Of a stretch of 64,000 nucleotides of DNA, positions 543 through 63,636 are shown piece by piece (within the stretch, counting starts at the first letter, position 1; each line of letters opens with the position of its first letter). The translations under genes were made by a program, and so were the position numbers. The DNA is from Nitrospira sp. (GTDB lineage: Bacteria; Nitrospirota; Nitrospiria; Nitrospirales; Nitrospiraceae): the NCBI GenBank assembly GCA_022226955.1, contig CP092079.1:1074015-1138014 (forward strand). Reading direction: 5' to 3'. The notes below the pieces were generated by a model. It did not search any database. It was not told where the DNA came from and saw only the letters and a list, made by a program, of their open reading frames with translations.

Positions 543-3500
543 TCACGAGCACCCATTCGTCGCGCCGCAGCTCACACACTTCAGGCAAGTGCCGTTACGC
601 ACCATCGTAAACTGTTTGCATTCCGGACAGGGATCGCCTTCATAACCCTTGACCTTGGCGCTCTGTACCTCGGTCAAGGTCAGCGTCTCGCGAATCAGCT
701 CGACTTTCCGCGCCGCCAGCGCATGGCCGTTTCCGTTTCCATGCTCTTTTGTTCCGTTCCGGCGAATCGGCAGATGCTCCATGCTCACCGACGATTTCGC
801 CAGCGCAACGATATCCGCTTCCTCGTCCACGCATTCAGGATCCTGCTCGTCCATCTTCATCGAGTCCATCCGCAAGTCTTCTTCTTTTACCTGCGCCAAA
901 TCGTACCGGTCCAGGTAGGTCACAGCCAGCTCACGGAAAATATAATCGATGATCGAGGTCGACATCTTAATGCGATCATTTAGTTTGACCGGTCCATTCG
1001 GCTCGAAACGGGTAAATACAAACGCTTCAACGAATTCTTCCAGCGGCACGCCATGCTGCAAACCCAAGGAAATCGCAATCGCGAAACAATTCATCAGGCT
1101 CCGAAACGCGGCGCCTTCTTTGTGCATATCCAAGAAGATCTCGCCGACCGTCCCGTCTTCATACTCACCGGTTCGCAAATACAGCTTATGCCCGCCGACA
1201 ATGGCTTTTTGGGTATACCCGTTCCGTCTTCCCGGCAGCGGCCGCCGCTTAGCTAGATAACGAACCAGCACACGCTCCGTGATTTTCTCCGCGGCCGCCG
1301 ATACCGTATCGACAGACGCCTCAACCGCCTTTTCCCCATCGCTCGATGCGCTCAGCGGCTGGCTCAACTTTGACCCGTCCCGATAGAGCGCCACCGCCTT
1401 CACCATGCTCTTCCAGGCAAACTGGTAGGCCGACTTCACCTCGTCAAGCGTCGCCTCCGCCGGCATGTTGATCGTCTTGCTGATCGCGCCGCTGATAAAC
1501 GGTTGCGCGGCGGCCATCATCCGAATATGCGCATCGACATGAATGAAGCGCTGGCCGATCCGGCCGCAACGATTGGCGCAATCGAAGACCGGCAGATGCT
1601 CGGCTTTCAAATGCGGGGCCCCTTCGACCGTCATTGTGCCGCAGCAATATTCGTTGGCCGCGGCAATTTCCTCCTGGGTGAAGCCCAGCGCCTTGAGCAT
1701 ATTGAAGTTCGTTTCAGCCAGCTGTGCATCGGTCAAACCAAGCTTCTCGATGCAAAACGCCTCGCCCAGAGTAAACTTGTTAAATAGAAACGCGATTTCA
1801 AAGGCCTGAACCAGGTTGCTTTCAAGCCGCTCCAGTGCGGCATCGTCAAACCCTTTATTGCGCAAGGTCTCGTGATTGATAAAGGGCGCGCCCTTGAGTG
1901 TCTGAGCGCCGACGCAATAGCGGACGATGTCTTGGATCTGGCTCTCGGAATACCCCATGGTCGTGAGGGCCTGGGGAATGCTCTGGTTGATGATCTTGAA
2001 ATACCCGCCACCGGCTAGCTTCTTGAACTTGACCAAGGCAAAGTCCGGCTCGATCCCGGTGGTGTCGCAATCCATCACCAGCCCGATCGTGCCGGTCGGC
2101 GCAATTACCGTCACCTGTGCATTGCGATACCCATAGGCCGTTCCGAGCTCCAAGGCCCGATCCCAGGCCCGGCGGGCCGCGATCAGCAGGTCGGGAGGAC
2201 AATGCTCCGGCTGAATGCCCATGGGAACGATCGACAGCCCTTCATATTCGTCCGCCGCAGTGTTATAGGCCGCCCGCCGGTGGTTGCGGATGACTCGCAG
2301 CATCTGGTCGCGATTCTTGATATATCCTGGAAACGGCCAGAGTTCCGCGGCCATTTCTGCCGATGTGCTATACGACTCTCCGGTCATAATCGACGTAATC
2401 GCTCCGCAGATTGCCATCGCTTTGGGAGAATCGTAGGGAATCCCCTGCCGCATCAATACCGTCCCGAGATTGGCATAACCCAATCCCAACGTACGGAACT
2501 GATAACTCCTCTCCGCAATCGATTTGCTTGGGAAAGACGCCATCAGCACGCTGATCTCCAGCACAATCGTCCAGAGACGCACCGCATGACGGAAGTTCTC
2601 CAACTCAAACTGCCCGTCCGGCGTGTAAAACAGCGCCAGATTGAGCGAGGCCAGATTGCAGGCCGTGTCGTCGAGAAACATGTATTCGGAGCAGGGATTG
2701 GAGGCGTTGATCCGCCCATCCTCAGGACAGGTATGCCACTCATTGATCGTCGTGTCGTACTGCGTCCCAGGGTCGGCGCAGATCCACGCGGCCCAGGCAA
2801 TTCGATCCCAAAGATCGCTGGCCTTCACCGTTTTACAGACCTTGCCGTCGATCCGGCGCTTTAACTGCCAATCGCCGTCATTTTCCAGCGCCTTGAAGAA
2901 CTCGTTCGGAATTCTGACGCTGTTATTGGAGTTCTGTCCGGAAACGGTCTGATAAGCTTTTCCATCCCAGTTTGTGTCGTATTCGTGAAATGCAAAATGG
3001 GTAAATCCCTGCTGGGCATACGAGTACATGCGTTGAACATAGGCTTCCGGCACCATATCCCGGCGAGCCGATGCCAGGGCTTCCCGCAAAACCGGATTCT
3101 TCTTCGGATCGATCTCTGCCCGCATCTGGCCCATGCCATCGACAACATGGCAAGCCTTCAACACCGCATTCAACCGTTGGGCGCAAACCTTCGACCCGGT
3201 GACCATAGCGGCCACTTTTTGCTCTTCGATAACTTTCCAATCGATAAATTCTTCAATGTCGGGATGGTCGAGATCCAGGCAGACCATCTTGGCGGCGCGT
3301 CTGGTGGTGCCTCCGGACTTAATGGCGCCTGCCGCACGATCCCCGATCTTGAGGAAAGACATCAGGCCGGATGACCGGCCACCGCCGGATAACCCTTCGC
3401 CGTCTCCTCGCAACCGAGAAAAATTCGTCCCGGTACCGGACCCGTACTTAAACAACCGGGCTTCCCGCACCCACAAATCCATAATCCCATTCTCGTTGAC

Positions 3501-57208: not shown

Positions 57209-59137
57209 TTATGCATGCCGAAGGATGCGGTCGAGAATCCCACGCAACGCCGGAAGCGTCACCGGCTTAGTGAGGACTGCATCCATTCCAGCCTGTACGC
57301 AAATTTGTGCATCCTCTGCGGAGGCGTGGCCAGTCAGTGCAATGACAGGAATATGGGAATTCGTCTCCGTCTCTCGTTGCCGAATTGCGCGAGTAGCGTC
57401 ATAGCCATCCATCTCCGGCATTTCACAGTCCATCAAGATCGCGTCGTAGGGTGTTCTCGACACCGCCTCGACTGCCTCGCGGCCATTCCGAGCGATTTCC
57501 ACTTCGTAGCCCAGCTTTTGGAGAAACTTGCACGCGACCACTTGGTTGATCTCGTTATCGTCGGCGACCAGGACGCGTTTCGGAACGTCCGATCGTAACT
57601 CCGGCTTGCCCATCTCTGAGGCCATGGAGTCGGCAGACTCGCGGTGAATCGCCGGCAACAGAAGCGTCGTGTAAGAAAACGTGGTGCCCGATCCTGCCTG
57701 GCTTTCGACCGCAATTCCCCCCCCCATCAGTTCGACGAGCTGCCGGCAAATCATCAATCCGAGACCCGTTCCTCCAAACTTTCTTGCCGTCGATGCCTCC
57801 GCTTGCGAATACGCCTGAAACAATCTGGACTGCTGTTCATCTGTCATGCCGATCCCCGTATCGGAAATCTTCCACTCAAGCCGGATGCTATCCGGCAGAA
57901 GGGAGGGCGATGGCCGCAATGCGACAGAGATTGCCACGCGGCCCCTCTCTGTGAATTTGATCGCATTGCCGACCAGATTGAAGAGAATCTGGCGAAGGCG
58001 CACCGGATCTCCGCGCAGACGATCCGGCACATCCGGCGCGACCTCAACCGTTAATTCCAGCTCCTTCTTGATCGCCAGCCCTGAGACAAGAGTCAGCACA
58101 TCCTCGATGAGCAAACGGAGATGCACATCTGCCGCTTCCAACGACATTTTCCCGGCTTCGATCTTTGAGAAATCCAAGATATCGTTCACCAACGCCAACA
58201 AGGCTTCCGAGGATCGATGCATACTTTGAAGCAATTGCCGTTGCTCATCGGTGAGCATCGTATCCTGCAAGAGTTGTGTGCATCCAAGCACGCCGTTCAT
58301 CGGTGTCCGAAGCTCGTGACTCATCGTGGCTAAGAAAATTCCCTTGGCATGGGCAGACTCTTCCGCCACTTCTTTCGCCCGGCGCAACGCCACATCGGCC
58401 GTGACATCAAGTCCATAGGCCCGAATCTGATCGAGATCACCCAATGGGAAAAACGACCAGGCAAGAACCCGATCGGCGATCATGTGTTCGATGCGACAGG
58501 TCGCCGAGCGGGTCCGCAGGCAATCCTTCAAAATCGTCTCCAAATCGTGAGGGAGCATTGCCTCGATCCCCTTCTCAAGGGCGCCGCAAGCGGTCAAGAG
58601 TTCCACCATCGCCGTGTTCGCATAGAGCATCCCCCCGACGCCATCGAACTCGACGATTGGATTCGGCGAGTCTTCAGCCAATCGCGCCACTCGCTGCACA
58701 TCTCGCTGCACTTCTATGTCCGCGGTCAAATCCCGCGTGACGATGACCGCGCCCACACGTTCGGCCAGCTGCACTCTTGGCCAGAATGTGGTTGAGAGTT
58801 CAAACCGAGTCCCATCCCCTCGCGTCCACTGATGGGATGGCACCATCGTGACTTCGCCAGTTTTCATCATCTGCTGGAAGGGGGAGCTGCCCGTCCCGTT
58901 GGGCGCCGACAACCGGCAATCCATCAGCTCCTGAAACGGCTGGCCAATCACATCGCGCACGCGGCCGACCAGTTGTTGGGCCATTGGATTCAAGGAGACA
59001 ATCCGCCCGCTCCGATCGGCGACGAACACCGCATCGCTCGACGACTCCATGAGAAGAAAGGCATCTTCTCGAGTCGGCAACCACGACATCTGCTTGGGCT
59101 CGCGCGCATTCGACTCAGGTTGCCGCTGAGGGCTCAT
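57209..59137 (-). CDS. hybrid PAS sensor histidine kinase-receiver
   Basis: The ATG at 59135-59137 overlaps the stop of the HD-GYP gene and gives 642 residues. An N-terminal PAS domain starts LLMESSSDAVFVADRSGRIV, and a second PAS-like region is near 145-260. The dimerisation domain has LATMSHELRTPMNGVLG with the phosphorylated His. The ATPase domain has NLVGNAIKFTE, DTGIGM and GGTGLGL. The C-terminal receiver has VLVADDNEINQ, ILMDCEMPEMDG and the usual Thr and Lys. No membrane segment is seen, so it senses a cytoplasmic signal, perhaps redox or a ligand. The phosphorelay partner is unknown. Confidence 0.9.
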   Translation of the reverse strand: MSPQRQPESNAREPKQMSWLPTREDAFLLMESSSDAVFVADRSGRIVSLNPMAQQLVGRVRDVIGQPFQELMDCRLSAPNGTGSSPFQQMMKTGEVTMVPSHQWTRGDGTRFELSTTFWPRVQLAERVGAVIVTRDLTADIEVQRDVQRVARLAEDSPNPIVEFDGVGGMLYANTAMVELLTACGALEKGIEAMLPHDLETILKDCLRTRSATCRIEHMIADRVLAWSFFPLGDLDQIRAYGLDVTADVALRRAKEVAEESAHAKGIFLATMSHELRTPMNGVLGCTQLLQDTMLTDEQRQLLQSMHRSSEALLALVNDILDFSKIEAGKMSLEAADVHLRLLIEDVLTLVSGLAIKKELELTVEVAPDVPDRLRGDPVRLRQILFNLVGNAIKFTERGRVAISVALRPSPSLLPDSIRLEWKISDTGIGMTDEQQSRLFQAYSQAEASTARKFGGTGLGLMICRQLVELMGGGIAVESQAGSGTTFSYTTLLLPAIHRESADSMASEMGKPELRSDVPKRVLVADDNEINQVVACKFLQKLGYEVEIARNGREAVEAVSRTPYDAILMDCEMPEMDGYDATRAIRQRETETNSHIPVIALTGHASAEDAQICVQAGMDAVLTKPVTLPALRGILDRILRHA

Positions 59138-60375
59138 GCGGCCACCTGTCTCAAAATCGATTCCACATCGATTCCTTCCCGCCGTGGATCTCGGATATCG
59201 TGAATGCTTCGCCCGCCTTCCGGTTCTTGAGCAAGGTCGAGCTCTAGAGGCGGCGCGCATGACCTCCCTCTCGCATCTCGACAGAGATACACAATAGGCA
59301 AGTGGGCCTTCCCTGGAGTAATCGCCCCCACAACCCCAACCTCTCCAGACTTCAAGGCCACAAGACTGTAGAGCGGAAACACACCGATCGCTCTGATCAG
59401 ATAGGACACCTGATCGCGTAAATACGGCTGATCGCGATATCGTTGATACAATTGCGTCATCGCTTGATTGGACGACATGGGAGGCCCGCCCGTTTGGCCG
59501 GTTAGCAGCTCGTCATACTGATCCACAATTCCGACAAGCGCGGAATAGGCTCGGACTTCTCCCGACTGGCCTTCAGTATTGGCCAGCAGTGCCTGCACCG
59601 CGTGATGATGCTTGACGATAAACAAAACCTCCGCGTCGCACACTCCGCTTTTCTCCAACACCACAAGCCCCTGCGCCGGATGGCTATCGTAGAGGGCCTG
59701 CTGCGCCGGCGGCATGGACTTGGTGCGGTTCAGAATGTTCTTGGGCAGACGGACAAGACCTACATCATGAAGCAGCGCAGCCACCCCCACGCGTTGCAAC
59801 ATCTCTCGAGGATAAGCCAGCGCTTGCCCGATAATGACAGCCAACGTACACACCGTCAGTCCATGTTCATGTAATGTGGGGTCTTGCTCCCGCAAGCCCA
59901 TGACTGCATAACAGGCCGCCTGGCGCTCGAAGATGAACCCAATCATCTCATCGACTAACTGACTGGCTTCTGCGTACGACACCAGCCCTGTGGCCCTGGT
60001 CCCGTCAAAAATTCGATTGAGACGATTGATCCACTCTGTCCGCCGCTGTTTCGCCAGCGCAAGATTGTCCGCCAACACCACAGCCGTACGTTCCGGAGAA
60101 ATAGGATTCAGCGTTGGCGAAAGAGACGGCTCCGCCTGAGCCTCACGCGCAAGACTCGGATCATCCGGCTTCACCTGAGAATCCGCAGCATCAAGCCCTC
60201 GAGCCGTATCGATTGTTACCTGCGCAATGCCCGATGCTCGCAATGCATCGATTTCCGATTGCGCGCTGATCACAAATTTATGCCGAAAAAACGGCGTGTG
60301 AAGCCACGAACGATCCACCCCAATCAGATACATCCCGACCTTAAGATTGGAAAGCAGAATTGTGCGATGCGCCAT
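59134..60375 (-). CDS. DUF3391-HD-GYP-type protein with degenerate GYP motif
   Basis: This 413-residue protein has an N-terminal DUF3391 segment, LSNLKVGMYLIGVDRSWLHT. The HD domain follows: EHGLTVCTLAVIIGQAL, ALLHDVGLVRLPKNIL, SHPAQG and VKHHHAV. In active c-di-GMP phosphodiesterases the last block reads HHE followed by DGxGYP; here the HH is kept but the GYP part is absent. Metal binding is possible, but hydrolysis of c-di-GMP is doubtful, so it may be a sensor or regulator. Its stop overlaps the kinase start (ATGA), so the two are expressed together. Confidence 0.82.
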   Translation of the reverse strand: MAHRTILLSNLKVGMYLIGVDRSWLHTPFFRHKFVISAQSEIDALRASGIAQVTIDTARGLDAADSQVKPDDPSLAREAQAEPSLSPTLNPISPERTAVVLADNLALAKQRRTEWINRLNRIFDGTRATGLVSYAEASQLVDEMIGFIFERQAACYAVMGLREQDPTLHEHGLTVCTLAVIIGQALAYPREMLQRVGVAALLHDVGLVRLPKNILNRTKSMPPAQQALYDSHPAQGLVVLEKSGVCDAEVLFIVKHHHAVQALLANTEGQSGEVRAYSALVGIVDQYDELLTGQTGGPPMSSNQAMTQLYQRYRDQPYLRDQVSYLIRAIGVFPLYSLVALKSGEVGVVGAITPGKAHLPIVYLCRDARGRSCAPPLELDLAQEPEGGRSIHDIRDPRREGIDVESILRQVAA

Positions 60376-60805
60376 ATCGTCGCAGATCCTTCGATTTAAT
60401 AGGGATATTCAGCTCTATTGGATCGGTAGATTACCCCTCAAACTTGAGTGTCTTCCGTTGGAATTCATGCCTGTCTGTATCCGTTCATGCAGAACGCTGT
60501 CCGTTCTGTCAGTAGAAAAATTTATAACTTAATTATATACCCTTATAATAGCAAATTACTCTCCATAGCCAAGCAACCTCGAAAAATGACAGCCCAGGGG
60601 AGACAGCTTTCCCATTGAACGGCATGGCTATTTGCTCACATAAATGCGGCACACAGGGTGTCGCGATATCGCGTACGTGTTTCATACAGAGCCTTTCTGA
60701 AATTTCAGCTGTTCATTGAGACCGGTTGTTGCCGTTTCCTCACAGGTCGACTGCACTGCAGCTCGGCAGAATCTGCTACACTTAGTCCAGTGCAAATAGA
60801 GCTGG
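60376..60805. other. intergenic region before the riboswitch
   Basis: About 430 bases with no gene. It contains an A+T-rich run with TATAAT at 60544-60549 and the palindrome at 60662-60673. It should carry the promoter of the HD-GYP/kinase operon on the minus strand and that of the riboswitch transcript on the plus strand, but no unambiguous -35 box was found. Confidence 0.4.
60662..60673. promoter_or_regulatory. 12-bp palindrome in the divergent region
   Basis: CGCGATATCGCG is a perfect palindrome between the divergent HD-GYP operon and the riboswitch-controlled gene. It could be an operator for either; no regulator is identified. Confidence 0.25.
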
Positions 60806-60825
60806 GTTGATCAATCCCGATCAAC
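60806..60825 (+). repeat. 7-bp hairpin just before the riboswitch
   Basis: GTTGATC (60806-60812) and GATCAAC (60819-60825) pair perfectly around AATCCC. It abuts the 5' edge of the GEMM aptamer and may mark its boundary or the transcript start region. Confidence 0.4.
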
Positions 60826-60920
60826 GCCGGCATGTGACAAAGGCAAACCACCTGAGAGGGTGGGACGCAAAGCCAAGGGACCTAACGAGGGACACATGTT
60901 CCAGGGTCAGCCTAGCCGCC
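60825..60920 (+). ncRNA. GEMM-I cyclic-dinucleotide riboswitch
   Basis: The core GGCAAACC (60842-60849), a stem CCACCT/GGGTGG closed by a GAGA (GNRA) loop at 60854-60857, and GGGACGCAAAGCC (60862-60874) are the conserved heart of the GEMM-I aptamer, which senses c-di-GMP or, in a subgroup, 3',3'-cGAMP. GGC (60842-60844) pairs with GCC (60872-60874). A second stem follows around GGGACACATGTTCC. The ends are approximate. The base before GGCAAACC is A, where the V. cholerae example has G. The expression platform lies at 60920-61029, where CTCCC (60974-60978) could pair with the gene's GGGAGG site. Confidence 0.85.
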
Positions 60921-61029
60921 ACAACGCAATGCTCTTCAAGCGCCACCGGCGTGCCAGGTATTTCCCGGAACTGCTCCCTCCGAATGACTCCACGCTGTGT
61001 CATCTCGGAACGGAACTGGGAGGTGCCGT

Positions 61030-61383
61030 ATGATGTCCGCTATCGATACCGCCTTATCGGGTCTGACCAACTTCGCCAAAAAGCTCGAGGTGTCCGCACA
61101 CAACGTGGCGAACATCAACACCGACGGGTTCCATAAATCGAGGGTGGAATCCGTTGAAGTGGGAACTGGCGGCGTGCTGCCAGTGGTCCAGAAGGACGAT
61201 TCGGCCGGGCCGAGCGTATTGAAAGACCGTGGGTACGGTGCGGCTCAAGTCGAATTGTCTAATGTCGATCTCGGAGAAGAGGCCGTCAGCCAAATCGTCG
61301 CCCAGCGCGGATTCGAGGCCAATCTCCACACGCTGAAAACCGCCGACGATATGCTGGGCAGCATCATCGACACGAAGCGGTAA
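61030..61383 (+). CDS. orphan FlgC-like flagellar rod protein
   Basis: This 117-residue protein begins ALSGLTNFAKKLEVSAHNVA NINTDG-type sequence, the flagellar rod/hook N-terminal motif, and ends NVDLGEEAVSQIVAQRGFEA followed by LHTLKTADDML, matching FlgC/FlgB-type C-termini. Full FlgC is usually about 135-150 residues, so this is a short form. GGGAGG six bases upstream sets the start at 61030. It stands alone after a GEMM riboswitch, with no other flagellar genes in the window, so it may be a variant rod subunit or serve a related appendage. Cyclic-dinucleotide control is inferred from the riboswitch. Confidence 0.82.
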   Translation: MMSAIDTALSGLTNFAKKLEVSAHNVANINTDGFHKSRVESVEVGTGGVLPVVQKDDSAGPSVLKDRGYGAAQVELSNVDLGEEAVSQIVAQRGFEANLHTLKTADDMLGSIIDTKR

Positions 61384-61458
61384 GTTCCCAGACCGGCGAT
61401 CCGTGTCATCGGGCACGCGACATAGCATTCCCGCCCGACAGTGTGCTATGTCGAGGGC

Positions 61459-63636
61459 ATGACCGCGCCCCGAGTTCTGTTACTGATTCCCCCACTCACC
61501 CAGCTGAATACGCCATACCCATCCACCGCTTACCTCACCGGATTCTTGCAGTCTCACGGGATCGCCTGTGAACAGGCCGATCTTGGAATTGAAATGGTCC
61601 TGCGCCTCTTCAGTCGCGATGGACTGCAAAAAATCTTTCACCTTGTGCGGCAATGGCAAGACCGCCTGCCCGAACAAGCCCTCGCCATGCTGGCCGACGA
61701 AGAGACCTATTTGAGTACGATCGACACCGTTGTATCCTTCCTGCAAGGCAAGACTCCAGAAGCCGCTGAGCAAATCCTCCGTCCTGGGTTTCTTCCACAG
61801 GGATTCCGATTCAACGGCAAGACACGATTTGCAAAATCTGTTTCTCTTGATGACCGAGCAAAACACTGGGGCACGCTCTACCTCGAAGACCTGGCCGATC
61901 TTGTTCAAGCGACTGTCAGTCCATCTTTCGCCCTCAGCCGTTACGCCGAACACCTGGCGCACTCCGCGTCGTCATTCGACCGATTAGCCTCGGCCCTCAC
62001 CGAACCGCTCAGCGTGACGGATGAATTTCTGCTGGATGCCTTGTGGCCACACCTCGATCGCACGAAACCAACTCTCGTAGGATTGTCGGTTCCCTTTCCC
62101 GGCAATCTCTATGGCGCATTTCGGGTTGCCCAAGCGATTAAGCAACTGCAGCCAAACCTCCCTATTGTGCTTGGCGGCGGCTATGCCAATACTGAACTAC
62201 GCCGGATCAGCGACCCACGAGTATTCGACTACGTGGACTTCATCACGCTGGACGACGGAGAACGGCCGCTCCTCTCGCTTCTCGAACATCTCGCCGGCCA
62301 ACGGCGGCACACCGAACTCTGCCGGACATTTTACCGAAAAGACCAGCGCGTGCTCTTCGCCGACGACCGCTCATCGCCGAATTTCAGCATGGGCGAGGTC
62401 GGCTGTCCGACCTATCGCGGGTTGCCGCTGGATCGCTACCTAACAATCCTCGACAGCACCAATCCGATGCATCGCCTCTGGTCCGAAGGCCATTGGAATA
62501 AGCTGACCGTCGCGCATGGCTGCTATTGGAAACAATGCACATTTTGCGATGTCGGGCTCGACTACATCGGCCGGTACGAAGCGACGCCGACCGAACGGTT
62601 GATCCTGCAAATCGAACAATTGATTGCCGAGACAGGACAACGGGGATTCCACTTTGTGGATGAAGCCGCTCCGCCTGCGGCACTCAAAGCACTGGCGCTG
62701 GGAGTCCTGGAACGAAGGATCGACATAACCTGGTGGGGAAACATCCGGTTCGAAGAAGCGTTTTCACCGGATCTGTGCAAGCTCTTAGCCGCCTCCGGCT
62801 GTATCGCCGTGACAGCAGGACTGGAAGCGGCCTCAGACCGCCTGCTCGACAAAATGAAAAAAGGGATCACGGTCGATCAGACGGCACTCGTAGCCGCCGC
62901 CTTTCAAGAAGCCGGCATCATGATCCACGCATATCTCATGTACGGATTTCCTTCGGAAACAATCCAAGAAGCCGTGGATGCCCTCGAACGCGTGCGGCAG
63001 CTCTTCAAGGCAGACCTGATACAATCGGCCTTCTGGCACCGATTCACCACCACCGCTCACAGCCCGGTCGGCCTTGATCCCAAAGCGAACGGGCTACGCA
63101 TCCTCGGCCCAGCGTTTGAAGGCTTCGCCGATAATGATCTGATTCACCGAGACCGCATTGGGAAAACACCTACCTGGCTGGGCGAAGGCTTGCGCCGATC
63201 CATGTTGAACTTTCTGGAAGGGCGCGGTTTGACGCTGGATGTCCGGCAGTGGTTTGACTATGAAGTCCCTGCCCCCAATGTCCCTAAGAACTGGGTACGG
63301 ACGCTTCTCCGCAAGCAAGCGACAACGGACTCTCTGCCACTTGAACGCCGGCTGGTGTGGCTCGGCAATCGACCAGTCTTAGCAACGCACGCCAGCCACA
63401 TCACCCTGACCCTGGAAGGGCGATTTGCCAAAACCGTCATCCGCCTCCCCCACAAGCAGGGGCAGTGGTTGCATACCATCCTCACGCAAGCAACCCCACG
63501 CAAACACAAAACAACGCCCTATCCATGGATTCGAGACATCCAAGCCAGCTTTCCAGGCGCTGTCGAACATTTTTCCACGTTTTTACAGCATCCTGCTTGG
63601 AAAGAAGCCCGCGCCGCCGGATTGTTACTGGTCTAG
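61459..63636 (+). CDS. B12-binding-domain radical SAM protein
   Basis: The ATG at 61459 (GAGG upstream) gives 725 residues. The N-terminus RVLLLIPPLTQLNTPYPSTA and VGLSVPFPGNLYGAFRVAQA with IVLGGGYAN form the cobalamin-binding-like domain. The radical SAM cluster motif reads HGCYWKQCTFCDVG (Cys-X4-Cys-X2-Cys), a spacing seen in several B12-dependent members instead of Cys-X3. The later region carries WWGNIRFEEAF and TAGLEAASDRLLDKM, typical of this group. The substrate is unknown; methylation or ring-contraction-type chemistry is possible. No neighbouring pathway genes help. Confidence 0.85.
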   Translation: MTAPRVLLLIPPLTQLNTPYPSTAYLTGFLQSHGIACEQADLGIEMVLRLFSRDGLQKIFHLVRQWQDRLPEQALAMLADEETYLSTIDTVVSFLQGKTPEAAEQILRPGFLPQGFRFNGKTRFAKSVSLDDRAKHWGTLYLEDLADLVQATVSPSFALSRYAEHLAHSASSFDRLASALTEPLSVTDEFLLDALWPHLDRTKPTLVGLSVPFPGNLYGAFRVAQAIKQLQPNLPIVLGGGYANTELRRISDPRVFDYVDFITLDDGERPLLSLLEHLAGQRRHTELCRTFYRKDQRVLFADDRSSPNFSMGEVGCPTYRGLPLDRYLTILDSTNPMHRLWSEGHWNKLTVAHGCYWKQCTFCDVGLDYIGRYEATPTERLILQIEQLIAETGQRGFHFVDEAAPPAALKALALGVLERRIDITWWGNIRFEEAFSPDLCKLLAASGCIAVTAGLEAASDRLLDKMKKGITVDQTALVAAAFQEAGIMIHAYLMYGFPSETIQEAVDALERVRQLFKADLIQSAFWHRFTTTAHSPVGLDPKANGLRILGPAFEGFADNDLIHRDRIGKTPTWLGEGLRRSMLNFLEGRGLTLDVRQWFDYEVPAPNVPKNWVRTLLRKQATTDSLPLERRLVWLGNRPVLATHASHITLTLEGRFAKTVIRLPHKQGQWLHTILTQATPRKHKTTPYPWIRDIQASFPGAVEHFSTFLQHPAWKEARAAGLLLV

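Follow-up and report, generated by a model that had tools for sequence, protein, structure and literature searches.

In Clostridioides difficile, the c-di-GMP-I riboswitch Cd1 precedes the flagellar operon and acts as a transcriptional OFF switch of eleven genes (PMC9262584). Putative GEMM elements lie before flgB and fliE in Shewanella (PMC2659441), and with these two cases on record a c-di-GMP-I riboswitch before flagellar genes is not new in kind. Bdellovibrio bacteriovorus has a sigma28 consensus of TTAAG-N16-CCGATA, and also expresses merRNA, a c-di-GMP riboswitch RNA with no downstream gene that is proposed to serve as a c-di-GMP store; the RNAs marked as carrying a FliA promoter do not include merRNA (PMC3627812). 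A literature search found no paper on c-di-GMP riboswitches in Nitrospira.

The locus described here lies in a 64-kb stretch of a Nitrospira chromosome (the window), where a c-di-GMP-I aptamer precedes an orphan gene of the rod/hook family (Table 1). It resembles Cd1 in aptamer class, flagellar-type target and, by prediction, OFF direction, and differs from it in having one orphan rod-like gene, no intrinsic terminator and probable translational control. As in Shewanella, the GEMM element stands before a gene of rod or basal-body type. The Shewanella targets, however, are main flagellar genes, whereas the window target is an additional paralogue that lies well away from the flagellar cluster. 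The Bdellovibrio consensus is close to that found in Nitrospira, and both organisms place a c-di-GMP riboswitch within a sigma28-dominated programme, in Nitrospira as judged from relatives; unlike merRNA, the window aptamer is followed by a rod-like gene. The unusual features are the target, an orphan rod-like paralogue that is a sigma28 gene in relatives, and the clear record of how promoter, aptamer and gene were assembled and the aptamer lost. The riboswitch is probably a translational OFF switch of the orphan gene, a reading in which ligand binding, regulatory level and direction are all deduced from sequence comparison and folding.

Table 1. Features of the riboswitch locus, in window coordinates
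Feature	Position	Strand	Basis
Divergent DUF3391 + HD domain protein, conserved neighbour	59134..60375	-	Domain search
TGCTACACT, probable extended -10 feeding the riboswitch	60774..60782	+	Conserved motif; putative promoter
CCGATC, possible degenerate sigma28 -10 without recognisable -35	60817..60822	+	G137, G130 and other relatives have an intact sigma28 element here
c-di-GMP-I riboswitch aptamer (P1, P2, P3)	60833..60924	+	Rfam and lineage-model scores, covariation
GAGA (GNRA) loop of P2	60854..60857	+	Sequence and family alignment
Block GACGCAAAGCC of the aptamer	60864..60874	+	Sequence
GGGTCAGCC, 3' strand of P3, predicted rival partner of 60957-60966 in the ligand-free fold	60904..60912	+	Folding
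Expression platform, C-rich linker without intrinsic terminator	60925..61017	+	Base composition, terminator search
GGTATTTCCC, anti-ribosome-binding-site strand	60957..60966	+	10 bp with 61018-61027
GGGAGGTGCC, ribosome-binding site	61018..61027	+	GGAGGTGC identical in all 24 leaders aligned
Orphan rod/hook-family gene, 117 aa (P0001)	61030..61383	+	Pfam domains, profile searches
B12-binding-type radical SAM gene, conserved neighbour	61441..63636	+	Domain and neighbourhood comparison

The aptamer is the sole match above gathering threshold when the whole window is searched against Rfam 15 with cmscan. It scores 63.1 bits with the c-di-GMP-I-GGC family (RF03167; E 1.5e-12, cut-off 59 bits) and 107.5 bits with a lineage covariance model built from relatives. 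The first-pass annotation had called a GEMM-I riboswitch from its core, GNRA loop and GACGCAAAGCC block, and had named a scan with RF01051 (c-di-GMP-I/GEMM-I) as the check; all three elements are present, and the RF01051 score of 58.5 bits passes the cut-off of 35. Pairing holds in 89.5% of cells across 23 related aptamers, and drops to half when the partner is shifted by one base. Two-sided changes occur in 25 cells of the aptamer helices compared with 7.7 in shuffles, none of 500 shuffles reaching 25. Between distant orthologue pairs, identity is 87% in the aptamer, 30% in the linker and 43% at third codon positions. The genome of 3,635,119 bases contains this single c-di-GMP-I aptamer.

By its domain content, the 117-residue protein encoded downstream is a member of the flagellar rod/hook superfamily, with Flg_bb_rod (34.4 bits) and Flg_bbr_C (48.8 bits) both above gathering. 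These end segments are shared with FlgC, FlgG and FlgE, from which the protein differs in consisting of the end regions and a short middle only. Its profile retrieves solved chains of FlgG, FlgE and FlgC, and its AlphaFold model, which is of low confidence (mean pLDDT 53), comprises a helix, a β-hairpin and a second helix. The earlier label of FlgC-like is not supported: the NCBIfam FlgC model TIGR01395 gives 34.9 bits against a cut-off of 102.1, and both ends of the protein score higher with FlgG and FlgE models than with FlgC. It also falls under the cut-off of every specific NCBIfam model. Its description as an orphan rod-type gene, the first after the aptamer, is borne out. The gene lies at 1135 kb of the chromosome, approximately 140–200 kb from the flagellar genes at 934–996 kb, among which are flagellin (934 kb), the other rod/hook genes (964–996 kb) and a separate FlgC-like ORF (995 kb). 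Phage records searched for the protein contained none. The protein is presumably used in the flagellum.

Pairing between the expression platform and the ribosome-binding site had been proposed to involve a CTCCC segment. This segment is present (60974–60978) and able to pair with GGGAG, but the anti-ribosome-binding-site strand of Table 1, which is longer and conserved, is the better-supported partner. In seven relatives forming the window clade, the homologous site is 91% paired (other positions, 47 ± 16%); in a second lineage the corresponding anti-site, GGYRCYUUYC, is 90% paired, against 44 ± 12%. In this aligned-site test, complementarity to the ribosome-binding site is thus kept in two lineages despite sequence change, and the predicted helix upholds sequestration of that site as the likely mode of control. 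Duplex energies between linker and ribosome-binding site were not better than those of shuffled C-rich linkers, so C-richness alone is no proof and the aligned-site test was used instead.

The anti-site strand is predicted to compete with the aptamer itself. In the unforced fold of the window leader it pairs with the 3' strand of P3, and in each of the seven window-clade members this P3 strand is its rival partner in the free state. When the aptamer is forced, the probability of the helix between anti-site and ribosome-binding site rises from 0.42 to 1.00 in the window, as computed by a programme that leaves out ligand and tertiary contacts. Forcing the aptamer lowers accessibility of the ribosome-binding site in 21 of 24 leaders, the mean falling from 0.225 to 0.115 (0.168 to 0.144 with shuffled linkers). 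Forcing the aptamer still leaves a weak predicted anti-site helix in four of the nine A2 sequences, and no strong conserved anti-site was found in the g9 lineage or in G005. Two lineages retain the helix between anti-site and ribosome-binding site (10 bp in the window), which is in competition with the aptamer; this favours translational OFF control, though not in every lineage. At low c-di-GMP, the P3 3' strand would pair with the anti-site strand and leave the ribosome-binding site open. Binding of c-di-GMP would close P3 and P1, and the anti-site strand thus freed would pair with the ribosome-binding site, so that translation would stop. The rod-like subunit would in this way be directly responsive to a cyclic dinucleotide, as the first-pass annotation had supposed.

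The same riboswitch might instead act through Rho-dependent termination within its linker, which is rich in C and poor in G, or through coupling of translation and Rho. Linkers of 24 relatives average 39% C and 20% G, unlike aptamer-less leaders (27% and 23%), a composition that suits Rho, as do the lack of an intrinsic terminator on the right strand anywhere in the leader and the missing anti-site of the g9 lineage. An anti-ribosome-binding-site strand would also explain the C-richness, however, and the retention in two clades of a specific complementary strand of 9–10 nucleotides makes the Rho mechanism unlikely. Somewhat less probable again is an ON switch, by which c-di-GMP would raise the level of the rod-like protein, whose role would then lie in surface life and not in swimming. 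Other genera of the family have riboswitches of this class before large secreted repeat proteins, which, judged by their function, might be switched on in surface life; against this, Cd1, the flagellar example on record, switches its genes OFF (PMC9262584), the gene in relatives shares sigma28 promoters with flagellin, and fold predictions favour OFF in the 21 leaders already mentioned.

For the ligand pocket, the name 'GGC' is taken here to denote bases 20, 47 and 92, a reading and a numbering of this analysis that draw in part on alignments. Aligned to the family models, RF01051 included, the window aptamer has canonical pocket bases: G20 (60842), A47 (60869) and C92 (60919). The consensus of the 'GGC' variant family RF03167, GACGCGAA, has G at the position of A47, where the window sequence, GACGCAAA, has A; a 'GGC' pocket is thereby rejected. 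The numbering was tied by alignment to the described pocket of the 3',3'-cGAMP (GEMM-Ib) riboswitch, in which A14 stands at the position of G20, with A41 and C75; the role of G20A is described in the same paper (PMC6274999). A GEMM-Ib identity, which requires A at position 20, is likewise rejected by the G in the window. Given the canonical bases, c-di-GMP is the expected ligand despite RF03167 scoring best. Seven GGDEF genes or domains are present in the genome and could supply it. It is very improbable that in this species the aptamer has decayed to a relic, or has changed its specificity, and senses another dinucleotide or nothing: although the 'GGC' family is the best Rfam match and several lineages have lost the aptamer, G20, A47 and C92 are canonical, position 47 is not the G of that family, and the aptamer is conserved far beyond the neutral third codon positions.

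Two types of putative promoter element precede the gene. The first, TGCTA[CT]ACT or a one-base variant, occurs in 24 of the 29 aptamer-bearing orthologues, and stands alone 42–68 nt before the gene in eight aptamer-less orthologues, including that of N. moscoviensis. The second, [CAT]AAG[TC]-N13-15-CCGATA, lies no more than 110 nt from the start codon in 30 of 43 aptamer-less orthologues (shuffle rate 0.0004); it also precedes flagellin in five of five genomes checked, and is therefore read as a sigma28 (FliA) promoter (CAAGT-N14-CCGATA). In ten aptamer-bearing relatives this promoter precedes the aptamer, at a constant 19 nt from the -10 to AAAGGC. The element is degenerate in the window clade, where a TGCTACACT box lies upstream, and a flagellar expression programme is thus supported for relatives only. 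Among seven distant orthologues from other families, three match the sigma28 promoter strictly and none has an Rfam aptamer hit. Genome-wide counts of the sigma28 pattern are barely above a reversed-pattern control, which restricts the evidence for this promoter to position and conservation.

A direct repeat, GATCAA-TCCC-GATCAA, precedes the aptamer at 60811–60824; it is conserved in the window clade and may be a regulator site. In three relatives (G078, G130 and G137) a second sigma28-like site occurs approximately 5.6 kb downstream, where no clear gene was found. At loci L186, L189 and L190 of three relatives, near 3242–3308, a sigma28-like element lies directly 5' of an ORF starting MLVL, probably csrA.

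The orphan gene is conserved across Nitrospira; its closest named records are Nitrospira MAGs, and N. moscoviensis also carries it. Of 147 genomes of the family, about 60 contain a good orthologue (at least 58% identity); weaker orthologues are found in further families of this phylum, in Nitrospinota and elsewhere. The aptamer lies directly upstream of the gene in 29 of the 72 orthologues examined and is lacking in the other 43. On a tree of 70 genes its presence requires six changes, at least four of which are forced by well-supported branches. Searches of the aptamer-less leaders with the lineage covariance model, filters off, found no aptamer, chance hits elsewhere being the only matches. 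After the promoter and seven bases, however, these leaders keep a block, CGAYRGGG..., with as many as 18 of 23 positions identical to the aptamer 5' end. The match is best at exactly this offset, and the block is absent from flagellin leaders and from distant families. It is read here as a probable relic, a 5' stub of the aptamer. On the simplest reading of these sequences, the aptamer would have been gained in the Nitrospiraceae, at a position between promoter and gene, and then excised several times, the direction of change being part of that reading.

Chances are about even that these observations together describe an as yet undescribed, phylum-wide rod/hook-like late (sigma28) protein of the Nitrospirota, into whose gene the Nitrospiraceae inserted a riboswitch between promoter and start codon. 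The subunit would then need both a completed flagellar programme and low c-di-GMP, and repeated excision would have left the 5' stub. If so, c-di-GMP in nitrite-oxidizing and comammox Nitrospira targets one orphan rod-like subunit rather than the flagellar operon, which makes this subunit one point at which these important nitrifiers control the change from swimming to attachment. Orthologues that have the aptamer, lack it or keep its 5' stub provide a natural series for riboswitch loss between a promoter and its gene.

In other genera of the family (L036, L037, L038, L104 and L106), c-di-GMP-I aptamers have another type of target, standing before genes of large secreted repeat or fibronectin-like proteins. 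A truncated aptamer of roughly the first 46 bases only precedes a repeat protein in G029:C60 (L108), and is possibly another decayed riboswitch.

Orthologues of the orphan gene usually have the radical SAM gene downstream and, upstream on the opposite strand, either a degenerate HD-GYP protein or a hybrid histidine kinase. In the window, the radical SAM gene starts 57 nt downstream of the orphan gene, and may be a second, co-regulated gene of the same transcript. The divergent DUF3391-HD protein has the HD domain and keeps the HDVG motif, with the GYP motif absent, as in several orthologues; judged by these motifs, it may be a non-catalytic, degenerate HD-GYP. Some relatives encode an intact HD-GYP protein (HHERIDGSGYP) after the orphan gene, at 543–1854 (L051), 529–1735 (L057) and 385–1747 (L102) relative to the gene start.
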